Under the pieces are notes generated by a model. The model ran no database searches. It was not told where the DNA came from and was given only the letters and a program-made list of their open reading frames with translations. Of a stretch of 64,000 nt of DNA, positions 8,779 through 62,123 are shown one piece after another. Every line of letters begins with the position of its first letter. Positions within the stretch are counted from its first letter, which is position 1. The DNA is from Aquabacterium sp. (GTDB lineage: Bacteria; Pseudomonadota; Gammaproteobacteria; Burkholderiales; Burkholderiaceae_C). Location of the stretch: positions 1-64,000 of the forward strand of contig JAKLLB010000004.1 of the NCBI GenBank assembly GCA_023150345.1, in the 5' to 3' direction. Both the position numbers and the translations under genes were made by a program.

Positions 8779-9079
8779 CGAAGTGCTCCGTCAGGGGTGA
8801 GAAAGGGCAGTGAGGACAATGCACAAGGCCGGCAACATGCTCCCTGAGCAATGCGCCGGCCCGCTGGGAAATCGATTCTAAGCAGAGCCCCCGCGCGCCA
8901 CGCCGCAAAGCGTGGAGGAAGTGGCCGTCGGGTCCGGTTCTGATGCTGCGGTGCAGCACCGAACGGGCACAATACCAGTTTTTCGTCCGGCAGGCGATGG
9001 TTCCACCGCGTCCGCCGGGCCCTACCGCGCCGGCCGCACCCCGGGCCGGGACGCGGTGTCTCGCGAACCACCGATTTGC
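8779..9079. other. 301-nt divergent intergenic region with a short inverted repeat
   Basis: This region holds the promoters for argD (minus) and the DUF3579 gene (plus). A 6-bp inverted repeat with a 3-nt spacer (TGCTGC / GCAGCA, 8944-8958) lies about 120 nt upstream of the DUF3579 start and could be an operator or a small hairpin. No clear ARG-box, RNA gene or sigma-70 pair was recognised by eye. Confidence 0.4.
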
Positions 9080-9391: not shown

Positions 9392-9412
9392 AAGGGCCGA
9401 CTGCGTCGACTC

Positions 9413-9456
9413 CCTGAGGCTCCGCCGCGCGCCGTCGTCGGCGCCTCGGGCTCAGG
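9413..9456. terminator. Candidate bidirectional terminator between convergent genes
   Basis: The 67-nt gap between the convergent DUF3579 and alcohol dehydrogenase genes contains CCTGAGGC (9413-9420), able to pair with GCCTCGGG (9443-9450), or alternatively CCTGAG with CTCAGG (9451-9456). No T-run follows, so it would be a weak or factor-assisted terminator. The assignment rests on position and pairing only. Confidence 0.35.
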
Positions 9457-9458
9457 CC

Positions 9459-11570: not shown

Positions 11571-11590
11571 CGTCTCCTCGTCGTAGGGCT

Positions 11591-12346
11591 TCAGATGCTC
11601 ATGCCACCGTCGACAACGAGTGTCGTGCCGGTGGTGTAGCTCGATTGCGCGCTGGCCAGGTAGAGCACCGACTGCGCGATTTCGTCGGGCCGGCCGTGGC
11701 GCGCCAGCGGAGTTTGCTCGTCGAAGAAGGCTGCGCCGTCGCGCTGGATCAAACGCGCCAGGTCGGCCTCCACCGCGTGCTGGAAGGCGTTGTCGACCGG
11801 CCCGGGGTGAATGGTGTTGACGCGGATGCGCCGCGGCGCCAGTTCCTTGGCCAGGCAGCGCATGAGGCCGATCTGCGCATGCTTGGCGGTGATGTAGGCG
11901 TAGACGCCGGGGTCGCCGCGCAGGCCGGCCACGCTGGAGGTGATGACGATGCTGCCGCCGTCGTTCATCTGCGGCACGGCGGCGCGGCACATCAGGAAGG
12001 CACCCTTGACGTGCACCGCCTGAACGGCGTCGAACACGTCTTCGGGGTACTCGTGGATGGGCGCGACGACGCCGAAGTTGCCGGCGTTGCTGAACAGCAC
12101 ATCGATGCGGCCCAGCTGCGCAACGGTGGCCGCCACCAGTGCCTGGACGCTGGCGCGCTGTGCGACGTCGGTGGGCAGCGCCACGGCTGCGTCGCCGAGC
12201 TCGGCGCGCGCGGCCTCCAACCGCTGCGCATCGACATCGGCCAGCATCACGCGCGCGCCCTCGGTCACGAACAGCCGCGCCGTGGCCAGCCCGATGCTGC
12301 CGCCACCGCCGGTGACGAGGCAGACCTTGCCCTGCAGTGCCCCCAT
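11591..12346 (-). CDS. SDR family NAD(P)-dependent oxidoreductase
   Basis: A 251-residue classical short-chain dehydrogenase. It shows the nucleotide-binding TGGGGSIG, the NAG in FSNAGNFG, the catalytic serine in VITSSVAGL, and Tyr/Lys in YAYITAKHA, followed by a C-terminal GTTLVVDGGMS. ATG 12346 follows an AAGGAGGAGG ribosome site and removes an unconserved extension. The gene is 20 nt upstream of the PQQ alcohol dehydrogenase on the same strand, so it may process the same alcohol or a later ketone intermediate. Substrate unknown. Confidence 0.9.
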   Translation of the reverse strand: MGALQGKVCLVTGGGGSIGLATARLFVTEGARVMLADVDAQRLEAARAELGDAAVALPTDVAQRASVQALVAATVAQLGRIDVLFSNAGNFGVVAPIHEYPEDVFDAVQAVHVKGAFLMCRAAVPQMNDGGSIVITSSVAGLRGDPGVYAYITAKHAQIGLMRCLAKELAPRRIRVNTIHPGPVDNAFQHAVEADLARLIQRDGAAFFDEQTPLARHGRPDEIAQSVLYLASAQSSYTTGTTLVVDGGMSI

Positions 12347-43738: not shown

Positions 43739-43784
43739 CAGCCGCATGGCTGCGCCGCTTCCTCGTGTTTCCTGGAGCATGTCC

Positions 43785-44270
43785 ATGCCCAAGCGCTTGC
43801 TCGGTCTGAAGGTCAACGGTCGGTTGCATGAGGTGGCCGCCGCACAGAGCGCATTGCTCATCGAAGTGCTGCGCGACGTGCTCGGACTCACCGGCACCAA
43901 GCGCGGTTGCGATGGTGGTGAATGCGGTGCCTGCACCGTGCTGGTCGACGACCAGCCCCGCCTGGCCTGCATCACGCTGGCCGCCAGCGTCGAGGGCCGG
44001 CGCATCGAAACCATCGAAGGCCAGGCACGCGGGGGCGAGCTCAGCGCACTTCAGCGCGCCTTTCACGAGAAGCTGGGCACGCAGTGCGGCTACTGCACCC
44101 CCGGCATGGTGATGGCCGCCGAGGGCTTGCTGCGACGCCAGCCGCAGCCTTCGGTCGATGAGATCAAGGAGGCGCTCGGGGGCAACCTGTGCCGCTGCAC
44201 CGGCTACGTGAAGATCATCGAGTCGGTTCAGACGGCGGCTGGCTGTGGATGTGCCGGGGGTGCGCAATGA
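43785..44270 (+). CDS. hcrC: 4-Hydroxybenzoyl-CoA reductase, gamma subunit ([2Fe-2S])
   Basis: Small iron-sulfur subunit of the xanthine oxidase-family enzyme that removes the para-hydroxyl of 4-hydroxybenzoyl-CoA to give benzoyl-CoA. 161 residues with two [2Fe-2S] sites: plant-type Cys42, 47, 50, 62 ([10 protein letters not shown]) and the alpha-helical domain Cys101, 104, 136, 138 (CGYCTPG, CRCTG). ATG 43785 is preferred to ATG 43779 because GGAG at 43774 is then properly spaced. It overlaps hcrA by 4 nt. Assignment to 4-HBCR comes from the unique beta subunit in the same operon. Confidence 0.92.
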
Positions 44271-46588
44271 GCGGCCTGCAGCCCCGTGGCCCGATCGGCG
44301 CGCGCACGCCGCTGATCGACGGCATCGAAAAGGTCACCGGCCGGGCCCGCTACACGGCCGACATCGCCGCCACCGACGCACTGGTGGGCCGCATCCTGCG
44401 CAGCCCGCACCCGCATGCGCGCATCCTGGCCATCGACACCTCGGCGGCCGAGGCGCTCGAGGGCGTGGCCGCGGTGTGCACCGGCGACGAGACACCGGTT
44501 CCCTTCGGCGTGCTGCCCATCGCCGAGAACGAGTTTCCGTTGGCGCGCGGCAAGGTGCGTTACCGCGGTGATCCGGTGGCCGCGGTGGCCGCCGTCGACG
44601 AGGCCACTGCCGAGCGTGCACTGGCGCTCATCCGCGTGGAGTACGAGCCGCTGCCCGGCTACTTCACCGCCAAGGCGGCGATGAAGCCCGGGGCCGTCGC
44701 CATCCATGACGAAAAGCCGAACAACGTGCTGCGCGAGGTGCATGCCGAGTTCGGCGACACGGCGGCGGGCTTCGCGGCAGCCGATCTGGTGCGCGAGAAG
44801 GTCTACACCTACGAGGAGGTGAACCATGCGCACATGGAGCTCAACGCCACGCTGGCCGAGTACGACGCCGAGCGCGACTGGCTGACGCTGCACACCACCA
44901 CACAGGTGCCCTACTACGTGCACCTGAAGGTGGCCGCCTGCCTGCAGATGGACGAAGCGCGCGTGCGCGTCGTCAAGCCCTTCCTGGGTGGTGGCTTCGG
45001 CGCGCGCACCGAAGCGCTGCACTTCGAGATCATCGCCGGCCTGCTGGCGCGCAAGGCGCGCGGCACCGTGCGCCTGCTCCAAACGCGTGAAGAGACCTTC
45101 CTCGCTCACCGCGGTCGTCCGTGGACCGAGGTGAAGATGAAGATCGGCCTGAAGAAGGACGGCACGATCACCGCGCTGGCGCTGGAGGCCACCCAGGCCG
45201 GTGGCGCCTATGCCGGCTACGGCATCATCACCATCCTGTACACCGGCGCGCTGATGCACGGTCTGTACCACATCCCGGCGATCAAGCACGACGCCTGGCG
45301 CGTCTACACCAACCTGCCGCCGTGCGGTGCGATGCGCGGCCATGGCACGGTGGACACGCGCGCGGCGTTCGAGTCGTTGCTCAACGAGATGGCCGAGGAA
45401 CTGGGCATGGACACCATCGCGGTGCGCCAGGCCAACCTGCTGCCCCAGTTGCCGTACACCACGTTGTACGCGCAGCGCGTCAACAGCTACGGCCTGCCAG
45501 AATGCCTGGAGAAGGTCAAGGCCGCGTCGGGCTGGGCGGAGCGCCGCGGACGGATGCCCAAGGGTCGCGGCCTGGGCATCGCGTGCTCGCACTTCGTGTC
45601 GGGCACCTCCACGCCCAAGCACTGGACCGGCGAGCCACACGCCACCGTCAACCTCAAGCTCGACTTCGACGGCGGCATCACCTTGCTGACCGGGGCCTCG
45701 GACATCGGCCAGGGCTCCAACACCATGGCCACGCAGGTGGTGGCCGAGGTGATGGGCGTGCGCATGGACCGCATCCGCGTGATCGCGGCCGACAGCGCGC
45801 TCACGCCCAAGGACAACGGCAGCTACTCCTCGCGCGTGACCTTCATGGTGGGCAACGCCTCGCTGCACGCGGCCGAGCAGCTCAAGGCCATGCTGGTCAA
45901 GGCCGCGGCGCAACGGCTCAATGCGTTCGAGCAGGACATCGAGGTGCTCGACGAGATGTTCATCGTGCGCGGCAGCCCGAACCCGGGCCTGTCGTACCAC
46001 GACGCGGTGAAAGCGGCGATGGTCGACACCGGCACCATCACCGTCAAGGGCACCTACACCTGCCCGGTGGAGTACCAGGGCGACAAGAAGATCCGCGGCA
46101 GCGCCATCGGCGCCACCATGGGTTTTTGCTACGCGGCGCAGGTGGCCGAGGTCGAGGTCGACGAACTCACCGGCAAGGTCACCGTGCCCAAGGTGTGGGT
46201 GGCGGTCGACGTGGGCCGCGCGCTGAACCCGCTGTCGGTGGAAGGACAGATCCAGGGCGGGGTGTGGATGGGCCTGGGCCAGACCGTGTCCGAGGCCACG
46301 GCCTTCGACGACGGCCGCATGCTGCACGGCAACCTGCTGGACTACCGCGTGCCCACCATCGTCGAGAGCCCCGACATCGAGGTGTTCATCGTCGAGAGCA
46401 TCGACCCCAACGGCCCGTTCGGCGCCAAGGAGGCATCCGAAGGCATGTTGGCCGGCATCCTGCCGGCAGTGGAAGACGCCGTGTACGAGGCGGTGGGCGT
46501 GCGTTCGGCACGCTTCCCGCTGTCGCCCGATTGCATCCTCGACCTGCTCGACACCCGAGCGGCCAAGAAAGAAGGGGCCAAGAAGTGA
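44267..46588 (+). CDS. hcrA: 4-Hydroxybenzoyl-CoA reductase, alpha subunit (molybdopterin)
   Basis: Catalytic 773-residue subunit that binds the molybdopterin cytosine dinucleotide cofactor. Family features in order are [15 protein letters not shown], the cofactor loops [11 protein letters not shown] and [20 protein letters not shown], and the active-site glutamate region [11 protein letters not shown]. The length agrees closely with the described Thauera enzyme (about 770). It overlaps both neighbours by 4 nt (ATGA and GTGA). Electron flow in this family member is inverted: from ferredoxin to the Mo site. Confidence 0.93.
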
Positions 46589-47559
46589 GCCTGCTGCCCG
46601 ATCTCCTGACCGTGCGTCCCGGCACGCTGGCCGAGGCGGTGTCCGCCTTGGGTCAAAGCGGCGCCCAGGCGCTGGGTGGCGGCACCGACTTGCTGCCCAA
46701 TCTGAGGCGCGGTCTGGGGCTGCCCAGTGCGCTGGTCGACCTGACCGCACTGCCCGGTCTGGATGGCATTGCCGTGGCGGCCGATGGCACGCTGCGCATC
46801 GGCGCACTGGCCACGCTGCAGGCCATCGCCACCGATGCGGCCGTGCGCGGAGGCTGGCCGGCGCTGGCCGCCGCGGCCTCGCTCGTGGCCGGACCGACGC
46901 ATCGGGTGGCCGCCACGCTGGGCGGCAACCTGTGCCAGGACACGCGCTGCGTGTTCTACAACCAGAGCGAGTGGTGGCGCAGCGGCAATGGCTACTGCCT
47001 GAAGTACATGGGCGACAAGTGCCATGTGGTCGTCAAGAGCGACCGCTGCTATGCCACCTACCACGGTGACGTCGCTCCTGCCCTCATGGTGATGGATGCC
47101 CAGCTCGAGATCGCCGGCACCGGCGGCACCCGCCGCCTGCCAGTGGCGCAGCTGTTCCAGGAAGACGGGGCCAAGCGCCTGACGCTGGCTGCCGGCGAGA
47201 TGCTGGTGGCGGTGCATGTGCCGCCGTCCGGTGCCTGGCGCGCGCAGTACACGAAGGTGCGCATCCGCGAGGCGGTCGACTTCCCGCTGGCCGGCGTGGC
47301 CGCGGCCCTGCATCGCGAGGGCGACCGCATCGTCGGGCTGCGCCTGGCCATCACCGGCACCAACTCGGCGCCGCTGATGGTGCCGCTCGATGCCCTGCAA
47401 GGCGCGGCGTGGGACGACGCCGCCGCCACCCAACTGGTGCAAGCCGTGCGCAAGACCTGCAACGTGCTGGCCACCACCATCGCGTCGGTGAAGTACCGGC
47501 GGCGCGTGCTGCTCGCGGTAGCGCGCCAGGTGGTGGACGACCTGTGGCGCGCGGCCTGA
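46585..47559 (+). CDS. hcrB: 4-Hydroxybenzoyl-CoA reductase, beta subunit (FAD and extra [4Fe-4S])
   Basis: FAD subunit of 324 residues that receives low-potential electrons from ferredoxin. FAD-binding blocks are [14 protein letters not shown] and the [12 protein letters not shown] segment. A loop inserted after it carries Cys122, Cys138, Cys146 and Cys155, the extra [4Fe-4S] ligands known for 4-HBCR and absent from ordinary xanthine dehydrogenase FAD subunits. This is the strongest evidence for the enzyme's identity. The start is a GTG at 46585 overlapping the hcrA stop. Confidence 0.94.
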
Positions 47560-47659: not shown

Positions 47660-50020
47660 ATGTACCAGATCGTTCGACACGAGCGCTTCTCCGACAGCGC
47701 ATTCCTGTGGGAAGTGCTGGCGCCGGACGTGGCGGCAGCAGCGCAGCCGGGCCACTTCGTGATGCTGAGGCTGGACGAATCGGGCGAGCGCATTCCGCTG
47801 ACGGTGGCCGACTTCGACCGCGAGCGCGGCACCGTCACCATCGTCGTGCAGGCGCTGGGCAAGACCACGCGCGAGATGCGCGACCACTACAGCGAGGGCG
47901 ACAGCTTCGAGGACTTCGCCGGCCCGCTGGGGTTGCCGCAGCACATCGAGCGGGTGGGTCATGTGGTCCTGGTCGGTGGCGGCCTGGGCGTGGCGCCGGT
48001 GTTTCCGCAGTTGCGCGCCTTCAAGCAAGCCGGCAACCGCACCACCTGCATCGTGGGTTTTCGCGACGCCAGCCGCGCCTTCTGGACCGAGAAGCTGGGC
48101 GCCTACAGCGACGAGATGGTCCTGTGCACCGACGACGGCAGCATGGGACGGCCCGGCTTCGTCACCGAGGCCCTGCGCGAGGTGATCGAGCGTGAGAAGC
48201 CCGACCTCGTGGTGGCGATCGGGCCGATGCCCATGATGCGCGCCTGCGCCGAGGTCACGCGCCCGGCAGGCGTGCGCACCCTGGTGTCGCTGAACACCAT
48301 CATGGTCGACGGCACCGGCATGTGCGGCTCGTGCCGTGTCACCGTCAATGGCGAGGTGCGCTTCGCCTGCGTCGACGGCCCCGACTTCGACGCCCACGCC
48401 GTCGACTTCGGCGAACTGCTGGCGCGGCAGAAGCGCTTCGGCACGCAGGAGGCCCAGGCCAACGAGGACTTCGACCGCGTTTGCAGCCTCGAGCAAAAGC
48501 TGCTGGTCGAGGGCAAGCGCACGTACAAGAAGTACGCCGCCGTCGAGCGCCACCAGGTGGCCATGCCCGAGCGTGATGCCTCGGCGCGCGCGGTGTGCTT
48601 CGACGAGGTGAACCTGGGCTATGGCTGGCAGGCTGCACTTCGCGAGGCCGACCGCTGCATCCAGTGCGCCAAGCCCACCTGCATCGAGGGCTGCCCGGTG
48701 CGCATCGACATCCCGCGCTTCATCCGGCACCTGCTGGTGCGCGACCTGTCCTCCGCGGTCGAGGCGATCCACGATTCCAGCCCGTTCCCATCGGTGTGCG
48801 GTCGTGTCTGCCCGCAGGAGAGCCAGTGCGAGGCACAGTGCGTGCTGGTCAAGGCCAAGATGGAGCCGGTGGCCATCGGCCGCCTCGAGCGCTTCGTCGG
48901 CGACCACGCGCCGCCCGCCATGCCGCGCCCGCGTCCCGAGGGGCCGCGCATCGGTCGCGTGGCGGTCGTGGGCTCCGGACCAGGCGGACTGGCCGCCGCG
49001 GCCGACCTGGTGAAGTACGGCGCCGAGGTCACGGTCTACGAAGCCCTGCACGTGGTGGGCGGCGTGCTGCGCTACGGCATCCCGTCGTTTCGCCTGCCGC
49101 GCGACATCATCGATCGCGAGGTGCAGCAACTGCGCGACCTGGGCGTGCGTTTCGAGACCAACAAGGTCATCGGCAAGACCTTCACCGTGGCCCAGCTCAC
49201 CGGCGCGATGGGCTACGACGCGGTGTTCATCGCCGCCGGTGCAGGCGTGCCCGCCTTCCTCGGCATCCCGGGCGAGAACGCGGGCCAGGTGTACTCGGCC
49301 AACGAGTTCCTCACCCGCGTCAACCTCATGGGCGGCGACCGCTTCCCTTACCAGAGCACACCGGTCAGCGCCGGCCAGCGGGTGGTGGTGATCGGCGCCG
49401 GCAACACGGCAATGGACTGCCTGCGGGTGGCACGCCGCGTCGGCGCGCATTCGGTGCGCTGCGTCTACCGCCGCACCGAGGCCGAGGCACCGGCGCGCGT
49501 GGAGGAACTGCGCCACGCCCGCGAGGAGGGCATCGAGTTCAGCTTCCTGCACGCGCCCGCAGAGATCCTGCTGGACGACCGCGGCAACGTGCGCGGCATG
49601 CGCGCGCAGCGCATGACGCTGGGCGAGCCCGACGAACGCGGCCGGCGCAGCCCTGTGCCCACCGGCGAGTTCGTCGACTGGGAGTGCGATACCGTGATCT
49701 ACGCGTTGGGAACCAAGGCCAACCCGATCGTGGGCCAGTCCACGCCCGGCCTGGTGCTCGACCGCCGCGGCTACATCGCGGCCGATGAGCGCAGCCAGGC
49801 CACCAGCCTGCGTGGCGTGTTCGCCGGTGGCGACATCGTCACCGGTGGTGCCACCGTGATCCTGGCCATGGCCGCCGGCCGGCGGGCTGCGCGTGGCACC
49901 GCCGCCTGGCTGCAGAACCAGCGCGCCGAGTGGCCGCCGCGCGCCGAATGGCTGGAGCAGGTGCAACTGCCCGGCCAGACAGCCGGACTCGCTGCGGTCG
50001 AGGCCGCGTCTGCCAGCTGA
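47660..50020 (+). CDS. NfnA-NfnB-like fusion: NADPH/NADH-ferredoxin oxidoreductase on one polypeptide
   Basis: A 786-residue fusion. Residues about 1-290 match NfnA/PyrK-type FAD/NAD subunits: FAD motif RIPLTVADFD, NAD loop VGGGLGVAP, and a [2Fe-2S] site with Cys222, Cys225, Cys237 and candidate Asp217. Residues about 300-786 match NfnB/glutamate synthase small subunit: two [4Fe-4S] sites (Cys333, 336, 341, 345 and Cys380, 384, 390, 394), FAD loop GSGPGGLAAAA, NADP loop GAGNTAMDCLRVARR. All known cofactor sites appear intact. In NfnAB, NADPH oxidation is bifurcated to NAD and ferredoxin. It sits 100 nt after hcrB, so a role supplying reduced ferredoxin to HcrABC is inferred. Confidence 0.87.
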   Translation: MYQIVRHERFSDSAFLWEVLAPDVAAAAQPGHFVMLRLDESGERIPLTVADFDRERGTVTIVVQALGKTTREMRDHYSEGDSFEDFAGPLGLPQHIERVGHVVLVGGGLGVAPVFPQLRAFKQAGNRTTCIVGFRDASRAFWTEKLGAYSDEMVLCTDDGSMGRPGFVTEALREVIEREKPDLVVAIGPMPMMRACAEVTRPAGVRTLVSLNTIMVDGTGMCGSCRVTVNGEVRFACVDGPDFDAHAVDFGELLARQKRFGTQEAQANEDFDRVCSLEQKLLVEGKRTYKKYAAVERHQVAMPERDASARAVCFDEVNLGYGWQAALREADRCIQCAKPTCIEGCPVRIDIPRFIRHLLVRDLSSAVEAIHDSSPFPSVCGRVCPQESQCEAQCVLVKAKMEPVAIGRLERFVGDHAPPAMPRPRPEGPRIGRVAVVGSGPGGLAAAADLVKYGAEVTVYEALHVVGGVLRYGIPSFRLPRDIIDREVQQLRDLGVRFETNKVIGKTFTVAQLTGAMGYDAVFIAAGAGVPAFLGIPGENAGQVYSANEFLTRVNLMGGDRFPYQSTPVSAGQRVVVIGAGNTAMDCLRVARRVGAHSVRCVYRRTEAEAPARVEELRHAREEGIEFSFLHAPAEILLDDRGNVRGMRAQRMTLGEPDERGRRSPVPTGEFVDWECDTVIYALGTKANPIVGQSTPGLVLDRRGYIAADERSQATSLRGVFAGGDIVTGGATVILAMAAGRRAARGTAAWLQNQRAEWPPRAEWLEQVQLPGQTAGLAAVEAASAS

Positions 50021-50033
50021 GGAGCCCCACGCC

Positions 50034-52175
50034 ATGCTGTGCCCCAAGTGTCACCGGCCCCTGGCCGACGAATCCGACGGCCCGTACATCTGCTGCGCCG
50101 GCGCCTCCATGCAGTGGCAGTGTCGCCAGTGCGCCAAGGTCAGCGAGGGCTTCGCGCTGCCTTATGGTCGCTGCCCGCACTGCAACGGCGAGCTGGCGCT
50201 GCGCGAGGACGGTGCCGCCAACAGCGACGATGCCCGGTCCATCCGCGCCGTGCGCATGGCCTTCGAGATCGAACTCGGCGGACGCGCGTTCTATCAGCGT
50301 GCCGCAGCGGCCAGCACCGACGATGCCGCGCTGCGCGCGCTGTTCGAGCGCTTCGCGGTGATGGAAGGCGAGCACATGGAGACGCTGGCGCGCCGCTACC
50401 ACCTCGACATCCCCGATCCTTCGCCCGACTTCCGCATCGAGGTTGCCGCCATCTTCGCCGACGTGCCCCATGCGCCGCGCGGCGGCGTCGACACCGGCAA
50501 AGACCTGTTTCGCATCGCCATCGCGCTGGAGCACCGCGCTGCGGCCTTCTTCACCGAGCATGCGGCGCGCGCGCCCCAGGGTGCGCCCGAGCAGCTGCTG
50601 TTCCAGGAGCTGGCTGCCGAGGAGCGCGAGCATGCCGAACTGCTGACCACCGAGCAAGCCCGCTGGCGCGAGCGGCGCCCGGGACTGTTCGGGCACGAAC
50701 AACCTGCGACGGGGCAGTCGCCGATCAATGCCGCGGAGCTGCTGCTCGGTGGCAAGCCTGCCGATCACGTTGCCATCGAATGCGGCGGCCAGCGCATCAC
50801 ATACGGCGAGCTCACCGATCGCGTGGCCCGCGCAGCCGGCTTGTGGCGCCAGCGCGGCCTGCATACCGGCGATCGCGTGGCGGTGAAGCTGCCCGACGGC
50901 ATCGACTGGGTGGTGGCGTTTCTCGGCGCCATCTGGGCCGGCGGGGTGGCGGTGGCGGTCAACCCGCAGATCCCGGCGCCCGAGTGGCAGTTCATCCTCG
51001 AGCAGGCGGGCTTCAACGTCATCCTCAGCGAAACCGATGCCGATACACCGGAGCCCTGGAAGTCGCGCGTGGTGCTCGTCGACGAAGGGCGCCGTGCAGT
51101 GGCCGCGGCGCAGCCGATCGCGCCGATGCGGCTCGATCCCGAGACGCCTGCGTTCTGGTGCCATTCCTCCGGCACCTCCGGACGACCCAAGGCGGTGGTG
51201 CATGCCCACCGTTTTGCGCGGGACGTCCACCGGGTGTCGGTCGAGCGCCTGGGGCTGGTGCCCGAGGATCGGCTGTTCGCCAGCTCGCGGCTGTTCTTCG
51301 CCTACCCGCAGACCAACATCTTCTTTGCCGGCCTGAAGCTGGGTGCGACGCTTCTGCTCGATCCGCAATGGCCCACGGCGGCATCGGTGGTGGCCACTGC
51401 CCAGCAGATGAAAGCCACGGTGTTGTTCAGCGTGCCATCGCTGTACCGGGTGCTGCTGGCCGACGGCCATGCCCAGCAGCTGGCCGCTGCCGGCGTGCGC
51501 CGCTGCATCTCGGCCGGTGAGGCGCTGCCCGCGGCCTTGCGCCAGGGATGGGCCGATGCCAGCGGCATCCAGATCATCGACGGCTATGGCGCCTCCGAAG
51601 TGCTGGTGCTGGTCCTCACCAGCGTGGCCGGCGACGATGGCCTGAAGCCGTCTCCCGGCGTGACCGTGCGACCAGTCGACCCCGAGGCGGCGCGCGAGGG
51701 ACTGCCCAGTCGGCTGTGCATCGAGGTTTCCACCCTGGCACTGGGCTATCTGGACCAGCCCGCGGCCCAGGCCGACAGCTTCCGCCATGGCGCGTTCTGT
51801 CCGGCCGACTTGTTTGTCGCCACGCCTGGCGGCGGTTGGCGATTTGCCGGCCGCGAGGACGCGCTGGTCAAGATCAAGGGCCGCTGGGTCAACCTGGTGG
51901 AACTGGAGCAGCGCCTGTCGCAGGACCTGCCCGGCCTGGCCGAGGCGGCATGCGCCTGCGTGCCCGATGCCGACGGTCTGGACATCGTGGCGGTGTTCTA
52001 TGCACCGCAACCCGGGCGCGGCGACGAAGTGGCCCGCGCGCTGCGCGACCGTTGCGAAACCTTGCCGTCCTATCAGCGCCCCAAGCTCTTCCAGGCCATC
52101 GAGAACCTGCCGCGCACGGCCACCGGGAAGCTGGTGCGGCGCCGGCTGGTCGACATGGCCCGGCCCGGGCACTGA
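50034..52175 (+). CDS. Rubrerythrin-like diiron domain fused to a benzoate-CoA-ligase-type enzyme
   Basis: A 713-residue two-part protein. Residues 1-52 hold zinc-ribbon/rubredoxin-like cysteines (Cys3, 6, 30, 33, 47, 50; also 20, 21). Residues about 68-212 form a ferritin-like four-helix domain with a full diiron ligand set: Glu80, Glu111/His114, Glu166, Glu197/His200. Residues about 225-713 are an AMP-forming ligase with CHSSGTSGRPKAVV, DGYGASEVL, RFAGREDALVKIKGRW and the catalytic lysine in TATGKLVRR. The ligase half resembles benzoate-CoA ligases (LFFAYPQTNIFFAGL, VLFSVPSLYRVLL). ATG 50034 follows GGAG; there is no stop or frameshift between the parts. The aromatic acid substrate is not defined. 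Confidence 0.9.
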   Translation: MLCPKCHRPLADESDGPYICCAGASMQWQCRQCAKVSEGFALPYGRCPHCNGELALREDGAANSDDARSIRAVRMAFEIELGGRAFYQRAAAASTDDAALRALFERFAVMEGEHMETLARRYHLDIPDPSPDFRIEVAAIFADVPHAPRGGVDTGKDLFRIAIALEHRAAAFFTEHAARAPQGAPEQLLFQELAAEEREHAELLTTEQARWRERRPGLFGHEQPATGQSPINAAELLLGGKPADHVAIECGGQRITYGELTDRVARAAGLWRQRGLHTGDRVAVKLPDGIDWVVAFLGAIWAGGVAVAVNPQIPAPEWQFILEQAGFNVILSETDADTPEPWKSRVVLVDEGRRAVAAAQPIAPMRLDPETPAFWCHSSGTSGRPKAVVHAHRFARDVHRVSVERLGLVPEDRLFASSRLFFAYPQTNIFFAGLKLGATLLLDPQWPTAASVVATAQQMKATVLFSVPSLYRVLLADGHAQQLAAAGVRRCISAGEALPAALRQGWADASGIQIIDGYGASEVLVLVLTSVAGDDGLKPSPGVTVRPVDPEAAREGLPSRLCIEVSTLALGYLDQPAAQADSFRHGAFCPADLFVATPGGGWRFAGREDALVKIKGRWVNLVELEQRLSQDLPGLAEAACACVPDADGLDIVAVFYAPQPGRGDEVARALRDRCETLPSYQRPKLFQAIENLPRTATGKLVRRRLVDMARPGH

Positions 52176-52216: not shown

Positions 52217-53047
52217 ATGACTGAATCGTCGACTGCATCGACCGCCCCCGCGGTGCACACCGAGCGCCAGGACGGCGTGTTGGTGGCCACGTTGGCCCGC
52301 CCACCCGTGAATGCGCTGGACGACGCCCTGGTCGACGCGCTGGATGCGGCCATCGACCAAGCCTGCGCGGACGCCACGGTGAAGGTGCTGCACCTGCGCA
52401 GCGCGCACAAGGTGTTCTGCGCCGGGGCCGACCTGGCGCTGATGCAGCGCAGCATCGCCTCGGACGAAGGGCTGCAGGCCATGCTGGCGCTCGTCAGGCG
52501 CATGCAGCGCGTGGCGGCGCGACTGGAGTCTGCGCCCGTGGTGACGCTGGCCGAGTTGGGTGGCGCCGCGTTGGGCGGCGGATTCGAGATGGCGCTGGGT
52601 TGCGACCTGCGCATCGCCGCCTGCGAAGCGCGCCTGGGGTTGCCCGAGGCTGGGCTGGGGCTGCTCGCCGCGGCGGGGGGCACGCAGCGCCTGACGCGTC
52701 TGGTCGGGCCGGGACTGGCGCGGCGGTTGATCCTCAGCGCCGAGGTGGTCGACGGACGCACTGCTTTGGAGTTAGGCCTGGTGCAATGGGCGGTGCCGCG
52801 TGCCGAACTGGGCGAGACCGCGCGCGCGTTGGCGCAGCGCATCGCCGCACTGCCGCGCCAGGCACTGGCGGCGGCCAAGCCGTGCATAGCCGCCGCCGTC
52901 ACAGCGTCATCCGATGGATTCGAACTCGAGCTGGCGCACACGCGCGAGCTCTACCGCCACCCCGACACCCGTGCGCGCGTGACCGCCTTCCTGGCGCGTG
53001 ATGCACGCCCGACCCCACCGAGCCCTTCCAAGGAGAGCACCTCATGA
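52217..53047 (+). CDS. Enoyl-CoA hydratase/isomerase family protein
   Basis: A 276-residue crotonase-fold protein. The CoA-binding oxyanion residues lie in FCAGADLALM and GGAALGGGFEMALG. Both classic hydratase glutamates appear present, one in GGGFEMA and one in GLPEAGLGL, so it can plausibly hydrate an enoyl-CoA. It overlaps the SDR gene by 4 nt. A hydratase followed by an SDR fits a beta-oxidation-like step on a cyclic or open-chain CoA ester. Confidence 0.9.
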   Translation: MTESSTASTAPAVHTERQDGVLVATLARPPVNALDDALVDALDAAIDQACADATVKVLHLRSAHKVFCAGADLALMQRSIASDEGLQAMLALVRRMQRVAARLESAPVVTLAELGGAALGGGFEMALGCDLRIAACEARLGLPEAGLGLLAAAGGTQRLTRLVGPGLARRLILSAEVVDGRTALELGLVQWAVPRAELGETARALAQRIAALPRQALAAAKPCIAAAVTASSDGFELELAHTRELYRHPDTRARVTAFLARDARPTPPSPSKESTS

Positions 53048-53790
53048 CCGTCACCCACCGCACCGCCCTCATCACCGGCGGCGCCTCCGGCATCGGCCGC
53101 GCCACTGTCCAGATCTTTGCCGAAGCCGGCGCGCGCGTGCTGCTGGCCGACATCGACCAGACGCGCGGCGAGCAGGCCGTGGCCGAGCTGCGTGCCCAGG
53201 GCCACAGCGCCGAATTCGTCGCCATCGACCTCACCGATGCGGCCAATGTCGATGCCAGCGCGGCGCAGGTGCTGGCGCGCTTCGGCGCGCCCGACATCCT
53301 CGTCAACGGCGCCGGCTGGGGCAAGACGCAGCCGTTCTGGGAGGGCACGCCCGACTTCTGGCAGAAGCTGATCGGCCTGAACCTGATGGGGCCGATGCAG
53401 CTGACCAAGGCGCTGCTGCCGGCGATGATGGAGCGCGGCAGCGGCCGCATCGTCAACATCGCCAGCGACGCCGGCCGTGTGGGCAGCCTGGGCGAGACGG
53501 TGTATTCGGCGGCCAAGGGCGGGCTGATCGCCTTCACCAAGTCGCTGGCGCGCGAAGTGGCGCGCCGCGGCATCACGGTCAATTGCGTCTGCCCCGGCCC
53601 GACCGACACGCCGCTCATGGCCGCCGTGCCCGACAAGGTCAAGGAAGCGCTGACCAAGGCCATCCCCTTCCGTCGCCTGGGCCAGCCCGCCGAGGTGGGT
53701 CAGGCGGTGCTGTTCTTCGGCAGCGACGAAGCCAGCTACATCACCGGCCAGGTGATCAGCGTCAGCGGAGGCCTCACGATGGCGGGCTGA
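53044..53790 (+). CDS. SDR oxidoreductase, similar to 2-hydroxycyclohexanecarboxyl-CoA dehydrogenase (BadH)
   Basis: A 248-residue short-chain dehydrogenase. It has the cofactor motif TGGASGIGRA, VNGAGWGKTQ, the catalytic serine in VNIASDAGRVG and YSAAKGG, then the stretch VCPGPTDTPLM and the C-terminus GQVISVSGGLTMAG. The last two resemble BadH of Rhodopseudomonas from memory, more so than generic FabG. It would oxidise a 3-hydroxyacyl-CoA. Translation is coupled to the preceding hydratase gene (ATGA). Confidence 0.87.
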   Translation: MTVTHRTALITGGASGIGRATVQIFAEAGARVLLADIDQTRGEQAVAELRAQGHSAEFVAIDLTDAANVDASAAQVLARFGAPDILVNGAGWGKTQPFWEGTPDFWQKLIGLNLMGPMQLTKALLPAMMERGSGRIVNIASDAGRVGSLGETVYSAAKGGLIAFTKSLAREVARRGITVNCVCPGPTDTPLMAAVPDKVKEALTKAIPFRRLGQPAEVGQAVLFFGSDEASYITGQVISVSGGLTMAG

Positions 53791-53844: not shown

Positions 53845-54339
53845 ATGGACTACACCCTGCCCGAGTTCCTCGCCCACGCCATTGCCCTCGAGAACGAGGC
53901 GGCCGAGCGCTACCTCGAACTGGCCGACATGATGGAGGCCCACCGCAACGACCCGGTGGCCGAGCTGTTCCGCGACATGGTGCGCTACTCGCGCATGCAC
54001 CACGCGTCCATCGTCGAGCGGGCGCAGGGCATTGCGCTGCCGGCGCTGCGCTCGTGGCAGTACCGCTGGCGCCAGCCGCCCGAGGCCGGCGGCGACGAGG
54101 CCTTCGACATCTCGCTCGACACCTGGACGGCGCTGTGCTACGCCCGCGCCAACGAGGTGCGGGCCATGGAGTACTACAGCGAAGTGGGGCAGAGCACCAG
54201 CGATGCCGAGGTCAAGCGCCTGGCCGCCGAGTTTGCCGCCGAGGAGACCGAGCACGTCGCAGCACTCGATCAGTGGCTGGCGCGCACGCCGCGCCCGTCG
54301 ACCACCTGGCGCGACGACCCGGCCGCCCCGGCGGCCTGA
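53845..54339 (+). CDS. Ferritin-like (rubrerythrin-family) protein with an incomplete diiron site
   Basis: A 164-residue four-helix protein without a signal peptide. Helix A has Glu16 and Tyr23, helix C Glu104 and Tyr111, helix D Glu134/His137, all at rubrerythrin spacing. Helix B reads YSRMHHASI: the histidine is kept, but the expected glutamate three residues earlier is Ser49 or Arg50. The site may therefore bind one metal or act differently. No rubredoxin domain is attached. It lies 54 nt after the SDR gene in the aromatic CoA cluster, next in line after the rubrerythrin-ligase fusion. Role unknown; peroxide removal or redox partner work is speculation. Confidence 0.82.
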   Translation: MDYTLPEFLAHAIALENEAAERYLELADMMEAHRNDPVAELFRDMVRYSRMHHASIVERAQGIALPALRSWQYRWRQPPEAGGDEAFDISLDTWTALCYARANEVRAMEYYSEVGQSTSDAEVKRLAAEFAAEETEHVAALDQWLARTPRPSTTWRDDPAAPAA

Positions 54340-54838: not shown

Positions 54839-54921
54839 CGCCCTCGTGGTGTTGCGAACCATTCTAGGAGGCCGTGCGAATTCCTGCATGGCCATGCCGA
54901 TTTCAACCCAGGAGTGAACCC

Positions 54922-55740
54922 ATGAAGCGCATCGAGCTCGCCGGCTACCAGGCGAAACACTTCCAGTACACCGTGTCCGGCAAGGTGGCCACCATCACGC
55001 TGAACCGCCCGGACCGCAAGAACCCGCTCACCTTCGATTCCTACGGCGAACTGCGCGACCTGTTCCGCGAGATGGTGTACGCCACCGACATCAAGACGGT
55101 GGTCTTCACCGGCTCGGGCGGCAACTTCTGCTCGGGCGGCGATGTGCACGAGATCATCGGCCCGCTGGTCAAGATGGAAATGCCCGGGCTGCTGGAGTTC
55201 ACCCGCATGACCGGCGACCTCGTCAAGGCCATGCGCGCCTGCCCGCAGCCCATCATCTCGGCCATCGACGGCGTGTGCACCGGCGCCGGTGCGATGATCG
55301 CCTGCGGCTCCGACATGCGCATTGCCACGGCCCGCAGCAAGCTCGCCTTCCTGTTCGTGCGCGTGGGCCTGGCCGGCGCCGACATGGGCGCATGCACGTT
55401 GCTGCCGCGGCTGATCGGCCTGTCGCGTGCGGCCGACCTGCTCTACACCGGGCGCGTCGTCGGCGGCGAGGAGGCCGAGCGCTTCGGCTTCTACAACCGG
55501 CTGGTCGAGCCCGATGCCCTGCTGGGCGCCGCGCAGGCGCTGGCCGCCGAGCTGGCCGACGGCCCGACCTTCGGCCACATGATGACCAAGACCATGCTCT
55601 GGCAGGAGTGGAATGCCGGGCTGGGCGAGTGCATCGAGGCCGAGGCACAGGCCCAGGCCATCTGCATGGCCACGAAGGACTTCGAGCGTGCCTACCACGC
55701 GTTCGCGGCCAAGCAAAAGCCGGTGTTCGAAGGCAACTGA
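54922..55740 (+). CDS. Enoyl-CoA hydratase-fold protein lacking the hydratase glutamates
   Basis: A 272-residue crotonase superfamily protein. The oxyanion-hole region [12 protein letters not shown] and [15 protein letters not shown] are clear, but the residues that are glutamates in hydratases are replaced (TGAGAMIA and [12 protein letters not shown]), so another reaction is likely: hydrolysis, isomerisation or C-C cleavage as in BadI/MenB relatives. From memory it resembles hydratase-family proteins of 2-aminobenzoyl-CoA and salicylyl-CoA clusters. It is followed 32 nt later by an acyl-CoA dehydrogenase. An AGGAG site precedes ATG 54922. Confidence 0.87.
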
Positions 55741-58098: not shown

Positions 58099-58247
58099 GC
58101 GGCGGCGCACTGCCGGGCGGGCGGACGCCGTTCGCGCGTGAACGGGGTGCTGTCAACCCCCACGAGTGTCCGTGCTGCTCGGTGCGTTTCGGCCGCTAGA
58201 CTGCTGCCCTTGTGCCGGCCCCGACGCCGGCCGTCAGGGGAGCAGCG

Positions 58248-61200
58248 ATGGACAACGAGTGGATGCGGGCCTGGCTTCGCCAGCGCCAGCGCGCACAAGA
58301 CCTGATCGAGGGATCGGCCGATGCCGACTGGCTCGATGGCACCGGTGGCGACGACCGCCTGGTGGGAGGCGACGGCGACGACGACCTGCAGGGCTACACC
58401 GGCGATGACCGGCTCGAGGGCGGCGCCGGCATGGACATCGCCTGGTACACCGAGGCCGGCGCCGGCATCACGATCGACCTGGAGGCCGGCAATGCCCGCG
58501 GCGGTGACGGCAACGACACGCTCACGGGCATCGAGGGCTTCGGCGGATCGGACCACGACGACGAGGCCCTGGGTACCGCGGAGTCCAACGTCCTGTGGGG
58601 CGGAGCCGGCAACGACCGCCTGGTAGGCCGTGGTGGCGACGACGTGCTGAGCGGTGACGCAGGCGATGACCAACTGCAGGGCGATGGCGGCTACGACTAC
58701 GCGTCCTACATGCTGGCCACGTCCGCGGTGGTGGTCGACCTGAACACGGGCACCGCCGACGGCGAGGGGCACGACACCCTGCGTGGCATCGAAGGCCTGT
58801 TCGGCTCGATGTTCGGCGACACCCTGCGCGGTGACGCCGACGACAACGACTTCACCGGATTGGCCGGCGACGATCGCATCGATGGCGGCGCGGGCTGGGA
58901 CTATGCGAGCTACTGGTCATCGATCGTCGATGTGGAGATCGCGTTCGACCCCGTCACCCAGCTGCTGACCGTCGGGACCGACTGGGAAGGCACCGACACC
59001 CTGACCGGCGTCGAGGCCTTGATCTTCGACGAGGGTGTCTTCGAGGTCTCCTGGTTCCAGCAACCGGCGCCGCCGCAGGCGATCTGGATGTCGCCGGAGC
59101 GCGGCAGCACCGATGTCCGGGTGCAGCAGCCGTTGACCTTCCTGTTCAACGAGCCGGTCGTGCGGGGGCAGGGCAGCATCGACATCGTGCGCATCGACAC
59201 CGGTCAGGTCGTCCAGCGCATCGATGTGGCGACCGCTGCAAACCTGCAGATCGACGGACGCCAGCTCGTGATCGAGCCCGAACAACCGTTGCCGCGCGGC
59301 GCGCAGCTCGCGGTGCAGTTCAGCGCAGGTGCGCTCGTCGACGCCCGGGGCCAGCCCATGCGCAGCGAGGGCAACTGGAGTTTCAACACGCGCGCTGCGG
59401 TCGAAATCAACCTGGAGCGCGAGCTGGTCGCGAACGAGGCCGATGGCACCCTGCGCGTCACCGTTCGACTGTCCGAGCCGGTCGGGCAAGCGGTCTCGGC
59501 CACGGTCTGGCTCTATGACATCGACTTCGAGAACTTCCTGATCGGCACCGCGACCTGGGGCGATGACTACACCGACGATGACCAGCAGGTTCGCTTCGCA
59601 CCGGGGCAGACCGTCCAGGAACTGCGCTTCGCATTGACCGACGACGCGGTGTGGGAGGCCAGTGAGAACCTCTTCGTCGTGCTGTCCCAGGTCTCGGGCC
59701 CCGTTGTAGGAGGCGACACGACGGTGCAGGCGGTGGTCGTCGATGATGACAACCCGCTGGCAGAACTGGTTGCCGACCCGCTGGCGCATCAGCAATGGCA
59801 CCTGCTGCCCGGCGTGGGTGCGAACGTGTGGTCGGTCTGGCCCGACTACACCGGAGCCGGCGTGAGGGTGGGCGTGTTCGACCAGGGCATCGACCCAGGT
59901 CACCCCGAGCTCGACGGCAACTTGCTGGCCGAGCTGGGGCGCGATGCGGCCACGTTGGGGCCCGGCGGCTCGCCGCGCACCCGCAGCGACAACCATGGCA
60001 CCGCGGTCGCCGGTGTGGTGGCGGCCGAGCGCAATGGCCTGGGTCCGGTAGGCGTGGCCTACAACGCATCGCTGGTGTCGATCTATACGCCACTGGATGC
60101 CAGCTTCACTCCAACGTCGATCGAGCATGCGCTGACGCATGCCCTCGAGGTGGACGTGCTGAACAACAGCTGGGGCTATGCGCCGCAGTACTTCCTGGAC
60201 GATCCCTGGGCCTTCTACGACAACTTCGACACGCCCGAGTTCGCTGGAAGTGGCCAGGCCCTGCGCACGCTGGCCGAGCGTGGCCGCAACGGCCTGGGCA
60301 CGGTGGTGGTGCAGTCGGCCGGCAACAGCTTCGACTTCGGTGACGACACCAACCTGCACGGGTTCCAGAACAGCCGCTACATCGTCACGGTAGGCGCCAC
60401 AGGCCCCACGGGGGAGGTCAGCGGCTACAGCTCACCGGGAGCGTCGGTGCTGGTGGCCGCGCCAGGCGGCGAGGGCTGGGGCGGCTGGTTCGACGTGCTC
60501 ACCACTGACCGCACCGGCCGCGCCGGTTATGAGTCGGGCGATACCACCCGACTGGCGGGTACGTCCTTCTCGGCGCCAGTGGTCTCGGGGGTGGTGGCGC
60601 TCATGCTCGAGGCCAACCCGCAGCTGGGTTGGCGCGACGTGCAGGCCATACTGGCGCTGAGCGCCCACGACACCGAAACCGCCAGCGACGCACACGACTG
60701 GCGAGCCAACGGTGCCACCGACTGGAACGGCGGCGGCCTGCTGTTCGATGCCGAGCAACACGACCTGGGTTTCGGCATCGTCGATGCGCGGGCAGCCGTG
60801 AGGCTGGCCGAGACGTGGCAGGCGCCGGCGCGAACGTCGGCCAACCTGGTGCTGGTGCAGGCGGGGCGCACCGATGTCGCCGCCATACCGGACAACGACA
60901 CGGCGCTCCAGCAGCAGGTGCGCATCACCGACGACATCTCGGTCGAACGCGCTGAAGTCACACTGGACCTGCGACACGACTACATCGGCGACCTCGAGGT
61001 TCTGCTGGAGTCGCCCCAGGGCACGCGCTCATGGCTGGTGTCGCGCCCCGGGCAGAACGAGCGCTCGCCCTACGGATTGCCGCAGAAGGACATCCGGTTC
61101 ACGTTCAGCACCGTGCTCAACCTGGGCGAGTCGTCGGTCGGTGACTGGTCGTTGCAAATCTACGACCGCGAAGGCGGTGACAGTGGTACGCTGCAATCGT

Positions 61201-62123
61201 GGACGCTCACCTTGACAGGTAGCAGGCCTGATGGCGACGACACCTACTACTACAGTGATCGCTACGGCGAACTGGCCGTCGCCGACCCGCAACGCGCCGT
61301 CCTTGCGGATGCCGCCGGCAGCGACACGCTGCATGCCGGGATGGTCACCACGCCCGTCACGCTCGATCTGCAGCCCGGTGCCAGCCCGTGGATCGATGGC
61401 CACGCGCTCGCCCTGGCAACGGGCACGCAGCTCGAGCACGCGGTCGGCGGCGATGCCGGCGACCTGCTCATCGGCAACTCGGCGGCCAATCGCCTGTGCG
61501 GCATGCGCGGCGACGACGTGTTGCGCGGCAATGGCGGCGACGACACCATCGACGGTGGCGCCGGCCTGGACCAGGCGCGCTACGTGGGCCTGCGCGCCGA
61601 CTACCAGTTGCAGAGCACGCCCGCGGGAATGGAGGTTCACGACCTGCGCGGAGTCGAGGGGCGCGATGCCCTGATCGGCATCGAGCGCGTGGTGTTCGGC
61701 GACCTCGCCTTCGCCTTCGACACCACCGATGGCGGGCACGCAGCGCAGGTGGCGCAGATCCTGCGCGCGGTGCTGGGCCCTGCAGCGTTGCGCGAGCCGC
61801 TGTATGCAGGCATCGGCCTGCAGCTGGCCGATCAGGGGATGTCGATGGCCGACCTGGTCGCACTGGCCGTGGCCACGCCGCTGTTCGAGCAGCTCGCCGG
61901 GTCGCGCTCCAACACCGATTTCGTGCGGCTGGTGTACCGCCAGGTTGTGGGCCAGGAGGCGGATGCCGCCGCGCTTGCCACCTACGTGGGCATGCTCGAC
62001 AGCGGTGCGATCAGCCAGGAGGCGCTGGCGCTGCTCGCCGTTCAGTCGCCATTGAACGTGGGTAGCGCCGAACTGGTGGGGCTTGCCAGCACGGGTCTTG
62101 CCTATCTGCCGCAAGACGGCTGA
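58248..62123 (+). CDS. Large RTX-repeat subtilase with proprotein-convertase P domain and DUF4214
   Basis: A 1291-residue, probably type I secreted, acidic protease with no N-terminal signal. Order: RTX calcium-binding nonapeptides about 25-215 (e.g. GGDDRLVGGDGDDDL), Big/SwmB-like domain about 275-380, Calx-beta-like region about 385-500, subtilase about 525-855 with Asp545 (VFDQGID), His583 (NHGTAVAG), Asn693 and Ser773 (GTSFSAP), P/Homo B domain about 880-990, a second short RTX block about 1065-1105, and a DUF4214-like C-terminus about 1165-1270. ATG 58248 follows AGGGGAG; GTG 58212 is weaker. No exporter genes are nearby. Confidence 0.9.
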   Translation: MDNEWMRAWLRQRQRAQDLIEGSADADWLDGTGGDDRLVGGDGDDDLQGYTGDDRLEGGAGMDIAWYTEAGAGITIDLEAGNARGGDGNDTLTGIEGFGGSDHDDEALGTAESNVLWGGAGNDRLVGRGGDDVLSGDAGDDQLQGDGGYDYASYMLATSAVVVDLNTGTADGEGHDTLRGIEGLFGSMFGDTLRGDADDNDFTGLAGDDRIDGGAGWDYASYWSSIVDVEIAFDPVTQLLTVGTDWEGTDTLTGVEALIFDEGVFEVSWFQQPAPPQAIWMSPERGSTDVRVQQPLTFLFNEPVVRGQGSIDIVRIDTGQVVQRIDVATAANLQIDGRQLVIEPEQPLPRGAQLAVQFSAGALVDARGQPMRSEGNWSFNTRAAVEINLERELVANEADGTLRVTVRLSEPVGQAVSATVWLYDIDFENFLIGTATWGDDYTDDDQQVRFAPGQTVQELRFALTDDAVWEASENLFVVLSQVSGPVVGGDTTVQAVVVDDDNPLAELVADPLAHQQWHLLPGVGANVWSVWPDYTGAGVRVGVFDQGIDPGHPELDGNLLAELGRDAATLGPGGSPRTRSDNHGTAVAGVVAAERNGLGPVGVAYNASLVSIYTPLDASFTPTSIEHALTHALEVDVLNNSWGYAPQYFLDDPWAFYDNFDTPEFAGSGQALRTLAERGRNGLGTVVVQSAGNSFDFGDDTNLHGFQNSRYIVTVGATGPTGEVSGYSSPGASVLVAAPGGEGWGGWFDVLTTDRTGRAGYESGDTTRLAGTSFSAPVVSGVVALMLEANPQLGWRDVQAILALSAHDTETASDAHDWRANGATDWNGGGLLFDAEQHDLGFGIVDARAAVRLAETWQAPARTSANLVLVQAGRTDVAAIPDNDTALQQQVRITDDISVERAEVTLDLRHDYIGDLEVLLESPQGTRSWLVSRPGQNERSPYGLPQKDIRFTFSTVLNLGESSVGDWSLQIYDREGGDSGTLQSWTLTLTGSRPDGDDTYYYSDRYGELAVADPQRAVLADAAGSDTLHAGMVTTPVTLDLQPGASPWIDGHALALATGTQLEHAVGGDAGDLLIGNSAANRLCGMRGDDVLRGNGGDDTIDGGAGLDQARYVGLRADYQLQSTPAGMEVHDLRGVEGRDALIGIERVVFGDLAFAFDTTDGGHAAQVAQILRAVLGPAALREPLYAGIGLQLADQGMSMADLVALAVATPLFEQLAGSRSNTDFVRLVYRQVVGQEADAAALATYVGMLDSGAISQEALALLAVQSPLNVGSAELVGLASTGLAYLPQDG

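Follow-up and report, generated by a model that had tools for sequence, protein, structure and literature searches.

Introduction

Rubrerythrin-type diiron proteins have been described in several settings close to that of the gene analyzed here. Purified reverse rubrerythrins, a class represented by group 2 of Cardenas et al, 2016 (PMC5114695) and by revRbr of C. difficile, were found to use NADH, by way of partner proteins, for the reduction of H2O2 and O2, with turnovers of 1-8 per second, according to the available part of the report on revRbr (PMC7482061). HydR of Clostridium perfringens is a chimera of an [FeFe]-hydrogenase and a rubrerythrin, and Rub-Bfu is a predicted bifurcating complex, as described in the accessible parts of PMC11926857 and PMC9304861, respectively; a ferritin domain also forms the C-terminal end of the putative family PRK12775 (NCBIfam NF009413), the rest of which is of the Nfn type. 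In the present study, we analyzed a stretch of 64,000 nucleotides from Aquabacterium sp. (contig JAKLLB010000004.1 of assembly GCA_023150345.1, positions 1 to 64,000 of the forward strand; hereafter, the window), in which one gene joins a rubrerythrin-type head to an AMP-forming coenzyme A (CoA) ligase. The original prediction, made from the DNA letters alone, had stated that no enzyme of this architecture was known. This stood insofar as many characterized proteins of the same architecture were looked for and not found; the head proved to be the known domain of PRK12775, and the fusion a conserved family of Burkholderiales.

Results

The fused gene is a single stop-free frame of 713 codons on the plus strand (50034-52175), and its product consists, from the N to the C terminus, of a Cys-rich rubredoxin-like segment, a ferritin-like diiron bundle, a variable linker and a complete enzyme of the benzoate-CoA-ligase type. 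The gene, its start signal and its parts are as follows.

50034..52175, + strand: fused gene for a rubrerythrin-type head and an AMP-forming CoA ligase, 713 aa (open reading frame, Pfam and NCBIfam; one frame in relatives)
50021..50024, + strand: GGAG resembling a Shine-Dalgarno site, between the Nfn stop and the fused gene (13-bp gap)
50034..50216, + strand: Cys-rich segment with CxxC (3, 6), CC (20, 21) and rubredoxin-like CxxC-13-CxxC (30/33, 47/50)
50232..50669, + strand: ferritin-like four-helix diiron bundle with ligands E78/E80, E111, H114, E166, E196/E197 and H200 (PF02915, AlphaFold, invariance)
50670..50726, + strand: linker of variable length, no start codons
50757..52130, + strand: AMP-forming acyl-CoA ligase domains AMP-binding and AMP-binding_C (Pfam, NCBIfam)

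In the Pfam analysis, the protein matched Rubrerythrin PF02915 with 27.3 bits (cut-off 22.8), and AMP-binding (196.3 bits) and AMP-binding_C (30.7 bits) were both above cut-off. The phosphate-binding loop S379-G-T-S-G383 and K699, which we take to be the C-terminal catalytic lysine of AMP-forming ligases, were invariant in 20 of 20 sequences, bearing out the earlier claim of a complete ligase. The stop codon of the upstream Nfn-like gene lies at 50018-50020 and is followed directly by GGAG, 9 bases 5' of the fused ATG; a Shine-Dalgarno motif, loosely defined, precedes all 19 fused starts examined (19/19), a regularity that chance could yield in G+C-rich DNA. No in-frame ATG, GTG or TTG is present in codons 150-263, so that the head and the ligase should be made as one chain; on this ground, an internal start that would give the ligase by itself is ruled out.

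A search of a named genome collection led to 24 fetched loci, 19 of which contained the complete head and the ligase in one frame. The corresponding stretch was stop-free in all 24, four partial or headless ones included, and no frame shift or stop, for which the relatives were inspected as the sign of two falsely joined genes, was found. The other five loci were one truncated within the head by the beginning of its contig (L027), one without the rubredoxin segment (L029), a ligase alone (L032), one beginning at the ligase at a contig edge, where the head is not judgeable (L034), and a distant ligase of 22% identity (L035). The linker of the 19 fusion proteins was 16-33 residues long and in frame every time. 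The ratio of nonsynonymous to synonymous substitution rates (dN/dS) in the 14 closest pairs was 0.10-0.24 for the head and 0.10-0.23 for the ligase, and the two parts are under similar purifying selection. An assembly artefact is ruled out by the in-frame conservation across independent assemblies, and the joined gene is real and conserved in Burkholderiales; the uninterrupted frame of rubredoxin-like cysteine pairs, ferritin-like domain and ligase that had been predicted is thus confirmed.

Seventeen of the 19 fusions were in records titled as Burkholderiales taxa (Ramlibacter, Rubrivivax, Rhizobacter, Piscinibacter, Comamonadaceae, Burkholderiaceae and unnamed Burkholderiales), L014 was titled only as Pseudomonadota and L012 as Anaerolineales. 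L026 is from the isolate Ramlibacter lithotrophicus RBP-1, and the remaining fusion loci are metagenome assemblies. Within Aquabacterium, the genus of the window, the head was present in 3 of 21 genomes and was ligase-fused in two of these. A second head-ligase copy was found in seven genomes (L028, 9001-11133 and 17922-20072; L071-L076), the copy in L075 ending early, 626 codons past the start of its head, and the plasmid collection searched gave no match. L012, 97% identical to the window and so almost a duplicate of it, was excluded from the alignments and trees. In this Anaerolineales-titled record, the head-ligase (8343-11602) is 96-99% identical to that of the window and no Nfn gene lies upstream; the contig is probably mis-binned or chimeric.

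To characterize the head, 39 sequences were compared, namely 27 ligase-fused, 10 stand-alone and one Nfn-fused head in addition to that of L029. E78, E80, E111, H114, E166, E196, E197 and H200 were invariant in all of them, and the rubrerythrin set of diiron ligands (E, ExxH, E, ExxH), including the residues named in advance (Glu80, Glu111/His114, Glu166 and Glu197/His200), was therefore present in 39/39. The eight Cys residues (3, 6, 20, 21, 30, 33, 47 and 50) were kept in all 36 heads with an intact N terminus, a count that leaves out two heads cut by contig ends and L029, which has lost the segment. C30xxC33-13-C47xxC50 fits the N-terminal rubredoxin-like CxxC-x10-14-CxxC pattern of the reverse type, a spacing rule taken from the available part of PMC5114695, and N-terminal CxxC and CC motifs are present in addition. 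None of the Pfam rubredoxin models matched the head above cut-off, RUBY_RBDX giving a weak match in a relative only. A ferritin-like four-helix bundle is indicated by PF02915 above cut-off and by the AlphaFold model of the head (predicted local distance difference test score, pLDDT, 83.6; predicted template modeling score, pTM, 0.83), which shows four long helices, with short strands in the Cys-rich segment. In the full-length model (pLDDT 75), residues 220-227 have pLDDT <50, and the arrangement of head and ligase is not fixed by the model.

By its family match, the head is the C-terminal ferritin domain of PRK12775: residues 3-218 of the fused protein match positions 799-1005 of this NCBIfam model (1006 positions) with 264 bits, and the upstream Nfn-like gene corresponds to positions 1-780 with 1397 bits. 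Since the two neighboring genes match these two portions, PRK12775 appears to have been cut before the ferritin domain and the domain joined to the next gene, that of the ligase. The window does not encode PRK12775 as one protein, a stop codon and a frame change lying between the two separately scoring parts, and the full PRK12775 (Nfn and ferritin in one protein) gave no match above the curated 1895 bits in the 25 genomes searched. The Nfn stop lies 9-48 bp 5' of the fused gene in 10 of the 11 loci measured and 988 bp in the other.

The occurrence of the head outside the fusion was also surveyed, in 399 genomes for the order survey and 398 genomes in another, with at most 7 first-look candidates scored per genome (at most 3 in the survey of headless ligases). 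Seven genomes of the order, including that of the window, gave strong head matches; in each of the six apart from the window's, the head was a separate gene beside nfn, with the gene for pyruvate:ferredoxin oxidoreductase (PFOR) next in four. Separate nfn-head pairs were also present in G005, G069, G070 and G081, with PFOR in G005 and G070. The phylum sample added one further strong head, that of L084, which is fused to Nfn in one frame. Stand-alone head genes (10 genomes) end 4-26 codons past the head, and PFOR is next to six of the 10 (L036, L064 and L067-L070); nfn, the stand-alone head and PFOR form a repeated three-gene set, as at L036 5261-12247 and also at L064 and L067-L070. G072 seemingly holds an Nfn with its own head and then a second head on the ligase, on two contigs that are not joined. 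In the head tree, stand-alone and Nfn-fused heads fell on one side of a weakly supported branch (57/41), and the stand-alone head L065 stood among the fused ones in the drawn tree (forks <80 opened); the ligase tree could not be rooted well with its distant outgroup. By these trees, the fusion may have a single origin or more than one; it may have arisen by the joining of an nfn-adjacent head to a neighboring ligase gene.

The fused gene is situated in an operon-like run that reads HcrC-HcrA-HcrB-Nfn-[head-ligase]-enoyl-CoA hydratase-short-chain dehydrogenase-rubrerythrin-enoyl-CoA hydratase, and the family matches confirmed HcrABC and the Nfn-like fusion as the neighbors previously proposed. 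These genes, and one further frame in the window, are listed below.

43746..44270, + strand: HcrC-like [2Fe-2S] subunit (TIGR03193, 250.8 bits, just below the cut-off of 257.8)
44189..46588, + strand: HcrA, 4-hydroxybenzoyl-CoA reductase alpha (1306 bits, above cut-off; family match from 44306)
46594..47559, + strand: HcrB, 4-hydroxybenzoyl-CoA reductase beta, Cys-rich insert, start uncertain (484 bits, above cut-off)
47660..50020, + strand: Nfn-like fused NAD(P)H:ferredoxin oxidoreductase (PRK12775 positions 1-780, 1397 bits)
52244..53047, + strand: enoyl-CoA hydratase-family protein, start uncertain
53044..53790, + strand: short-chain dehydrogenase, nearest the BadH family (292 bits, below the cut-off of 431)
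53845..54339, + strand: second, separate rubrerythrin-family protein (PF02915, 44 bits)
54874..55740, + strand: enoyl-CoA hydratase-family protein PRK08258, start uncertain (478 bits, above the cut-off of 330)
58212-62123: 1303-aa open frame with subtilase-type, serralysin and RTX-repeat matches, all below curated cut-offs

In the genome of the window, BcrB, BcrC, Dch, Oah and Had were above cut-offs and KorA above a subfamily cut-off, BcrA, BcrD and KorB were assigned by similarity, and BoxB was present too. The BcrB/BcrC family PF06050 occurred in 24 of 25 genomes, and BoxB was above cut-off in 20 of 25. By gene content, the window organism is a facultative anaerobe; an aerobic reading in which HcrABC feeds the Box pathway alone is countered by PF06050 in those 24 genomes and by the organism's own Bcr cluster. 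As judged from gene neighborhoods, rubrerythrins recur at ferredoxin-dependent aromatic loci. Distant relatives (35-38% identity) of the separate rubrerythrin at 53845-54339 directly adjoin korAB in three genomes, at L080 (16797-17276), L082 (6853-7344) and L097 (15946-16422).

The best solved relatives of the ligase were benzoate-CoA and anthranilate-CoA ligases (26-30% identity). The protein scored 244 bits with benz_CoA_lig TIGR02262 (cut-off 375) and 290 bits with the 3-hydroxybenzoate-CoA ligase HbdA NF053567 (cut-off 1000), and membership in the benzoate-CoA or 3-hydroxybenzoate-CoA ligase family was rejected on these curated cut-offs, the gene context pointing to 4-hydroxybenzoate. Predicted from this context, the enzyme is probably a 4-hydroxybenzoate-CoA ligase, a better description than the original label of a benzoate-CoA-ligase-like enzyme. 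HcrABC is encoded in the window, HcrA was above cut-off in 19 of 25 genomes, and phenylphosphate carboxylase beta was above cut-off near the copies in L023 and L073. One stretch of L023 holds HcrCAB, the fusion, a MobR-like regulator, two genes resembling phosphoenolpyruvate (PEP) synthase and phenylphosphate carboxylase beta, and the second fused copy in L073 lies near the same phenol genes. By analogy with the Thauera/Aromatoleum pathway, the PEP-synthase-like halves are presumably phenylphosphate synthase. Because the product of the phenol route is 4-hydroxybenzoate, the presence of its genes beside the fusion makes 4-hydroxybenzoate the probable substrate; the order of this pathway in Thauera/Aromatoleum is given in the available part of PMC10715001.

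A MobR-like phenol regulator was found near four of the seven extra copies (L071, L072, L073 and L076) and was not seen near L074, L075 and the second L028 copy. Two of the four MobR-linked copies also lie by a TRAP transporter and a homogentisate-dioxygenase-like gene. Concerning the link to Hcr, G005 had neither the fusion nor an HcrA match, which is consistent with it; an HcrA match at E 1e-250 was absent in the fusion genomes G063, G064 and G068 (metagenome bins of 3.1, 3.9 and 2.6 Mb and of unstated completeness) and also in G072, which nonetheless has an HcrA piece in L078. The genome of the window contains another ligase, with 34% identity, about 5 kb from boxB.

Discussion

Taken together, the best explanation, which we consider somewhat more probable than all the others combined, is that the gene encodes a 4-hydroxybenzoate-CoA ligase with an O2/H2O2 reductase head of the reverse rubrerythrin type, which is fed by Nfn and protects HcrABC and ferredoxin-dependent enzymes. 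In this scheme, NAD(P)H and possibly ferredoxin would supply electrons to the flavin and Fe-S centers of the Nfn-like protein; these would hand them on to the rubredoxin-like Fe site and, from there, to the diiron site, at which H2O2 and some O2 would be reduced to water. The head could thereby act as an electron sink that clears peroxide and O2 beside the ligase and, via the ligase, beside HcrABC, being fixed to the first committed enzyme, where 4-hydroxybenzoyl-CoA would pass to the low-potential and presumably O2-labile HcrABC, in organisms that are likely facultative anaerobes also holding the O2-using Box pathway. This effect of joining the head to the ligase is a proposal based on gene and domain arrangement. 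The Nfn-like neighbor carries flavin and Fe-S domains and, hence, could be the partner protein of the head, and the Nfn-head fused form indicates that the two belong together. Furthermore, the ratio of head to ligase divergence averaged 1.30 at the 9 loci without an adjacent nfn vs 1.06 at the 12 with one (distances to the 12 nfn-adjacent loci; Mann-Whitney p 0.012, uncorrected for kinship; L025 counted as having no adjacent Nfn, though its genome has an Nfn with seemingly its own head). This faster divergence of the head where nfn is not adjacent supports the Nfn-fed sink, as does the headless ligase of L032 (8851-10560), which is nested inside the fused clade and belongs to a genome (G079) without an Nfn-type match. 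Among the three functions that the original prediction had offered, the removal of O2 or peroxide near O2-sensitive enzymes is, thus, the best supported one; diiron chemistry on the aromatic ring is unsupported, since the genome has HcrABC, Bcr-type and BoxB proteins for such chemistry, and a ring oxygenase role of the head was rejected as being without evidence.

Several observations weigh against this explanation. Ala169, three residues past E166, was invariant (17/17) at a position that presumably corresponds to Glu97, the redox-switching glutamate of classical D. vulgaris rubrerythrin; the head does not have this glutamate, and its peroxidase rates may accordingly be low. A Foldseek search with the head model gave ferritin-like but weak matches, none with E <0.001 and the best with E 0.02, headed by 2oh3 (COG1633) and then 2fzf. 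L032 has no head and L029 no rubredoxin segment, and the ligase fold appears able to do without a head, given ten headless relatives of the ligase (36-52% identity) in nine further genomes of the order. In L014, L016, L017 and L031, the 6.6 kb preceding nfn showed no Hcr genes, two of these genomes having HcrA elsewhere and two having none seen. In addition, five of 25 genomes (G020, G076, G077, G079 and G080) showed only GltD-type and no Nfn-type matches, a count in which completeness is known for G020 only (96%) and some genomes did not have all first-look candidates scored. Four of the five hold the fused head, one without its rubredoxin part, so that Nfn cannot be the sole electron donor and is weakened as an obligatory partner. 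Finally, the data give no reason why a peroxidase would be attached to the ligase and not to HcrABC or Nfn.

It is possible, though in our view unlikely, that the head is mainly a docking module, which would attach to the Nfn-like protein, HcrB or both and bring the ligase, Nfn and HcrABC together in one assembly for substrate and electron transfer, with the metal chemistry being secondary. Joining to two different partners, as to Nfn in L084 and to the ligase in the window, is often a sign of contact between them, and most loci with sufficient sequence upstream retain the gene order HcrB-head-ligase or Nfn-head-ligase. L029 (4104-7061) encodes HcrB, the diiron bundle and the ligase in one open frame, which suggests contact between ligase and reductase; however, it is a single metagenome contig, and a pure dock would not need the diiron ligands, which are invariant in 39/39 heads, those of Nfn-less genomes included.

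Very doubtful, as we see it, is a head that senses O2 or peroxide and gates the ligase, oxidation of the diiron site or Cys residues stopping ATP use when HcrABC cannot work. Such a gate would fit the direct covalent attachment of the head to an entry enzyme that consumes ATP, in a route presumably sensitive to O2, and a switch would be useful in the 20 of 25 genomes with BoxB of the aerobic route, but a linker of 16-33 residues is unlike tight allosteric coupling, headless relatives exist at up to 52% identity with L032 even inside the clade, and the full-length model leaves the domain arrangement unfixed. We also give little credit to a fusion of little functional meaning, in which neighboring genes were neutrally joined and the head still works as a free rubrerythrin. 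Fission and fusion are indeed frequent (separate gene, Nfn-fused, ligase-fused, lost), the linker is flexible and L032 lives without a head, whereas 19 of the 24 fetched loci retain the fusion, as do second copies in seven genomes, and the loci inspected included no clade member in which head and ligase were separate neighboring genes.

The protective sink that we favor bears on how facultative anaerobes that dehydroxylate or reduce aromatic rings, which must guard very low-potential, O2-sensitive enzymes while near oxygen, may do so: a peroxide/O2 reductase on the pathway entry enzyme, placed in evolution on Nfn or on the ligase, would directly answer how the guarding works. As a more speculative extension, to which we assign a low probability, an O2/peroxide-responsive head might gate an ATP-dependent aromatic CoA ligase, or weld the ligase, 4-hydroxybenzoyl-CoA reductase and an Nfn-type supplier into a protected metabolon, tying substrate activation to oxygen status; if true, this would add a new type of control point to aromatic catabolism. 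The system is testable in the isolate Ramlibacter lithotrophicus RBP-1, which carries the fusion.

No paper on a rubrerythrin-CoA-ligase fusion was found in the open-access papers searched, as covered by titles and the starts of abstracts among the matches listed, with subscription papers mostly outside, and the available parts of the Nfn review PMC6405883 and of PMC2996986 contain nothing on it. On the side of the ligase, the benzoate-CoA ligase of PDB 4eat belongs to the same superfamily; the ligase of the window is about 30% identical to benzoate-CoA ligases, carries the N-terminal head in addition and has Val/Leu aligned with His333/Ile334 of 4eat, the same two residues that are changed in PDB 6m2o. 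Hcl2, the 4-hydroxybenzoate-CoA ligase of Aromatoleum aromaticum described in the accessible part of PMC10715001, would hold the same pathway position by gene context. As to the head, the closest PDB sequences are 2fzf (a hypothetical protein) and 2oh3 (COG1633), not classical rubrerythrins. It resembles the reverse rubrerythrins, as far as the available parts of the two papers on them describe these, in that a closely spaced, rubredoxin-like CxxC pair at the N terminus precedes a ferritin-like diiron bundle, and differs from them in the extra N-terminal CxxC and CC, in Ala at the Glu97 place and in the C-terminal ligase. Rub-Bfu, in the available part of its description (PMC9304861), similarly has a rubrerythrin gene beside BfuB, a flavin/Fe-S oxidoreductase of the bifurcating type, but with Bfu instead of Nfn and with no ligase. 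HydR likewise has a rubrerythrin covalently attached to an O2-sensitive metabolic enzyme; its partner is an electron donor according to the accessible part of PMC11926857, whereas that in the window is a non-redox, ATP-dependent ligase. PRK12775 is homologous to the head over its whole ferritin part and to the upstream gene over the rest, and differs in that the halves are separate genes in the window, with the ferritin part on a CoA ligase; the ferritin tail of this putative family, thereby, gains a metabolic context. As far as the available parts of these sources go, rubrerythrin fusions and pairings are already known from HydR, PRK12775 and the predicted Rub-Bfu, and the acyl-CoA ligase adds a further partner to these.

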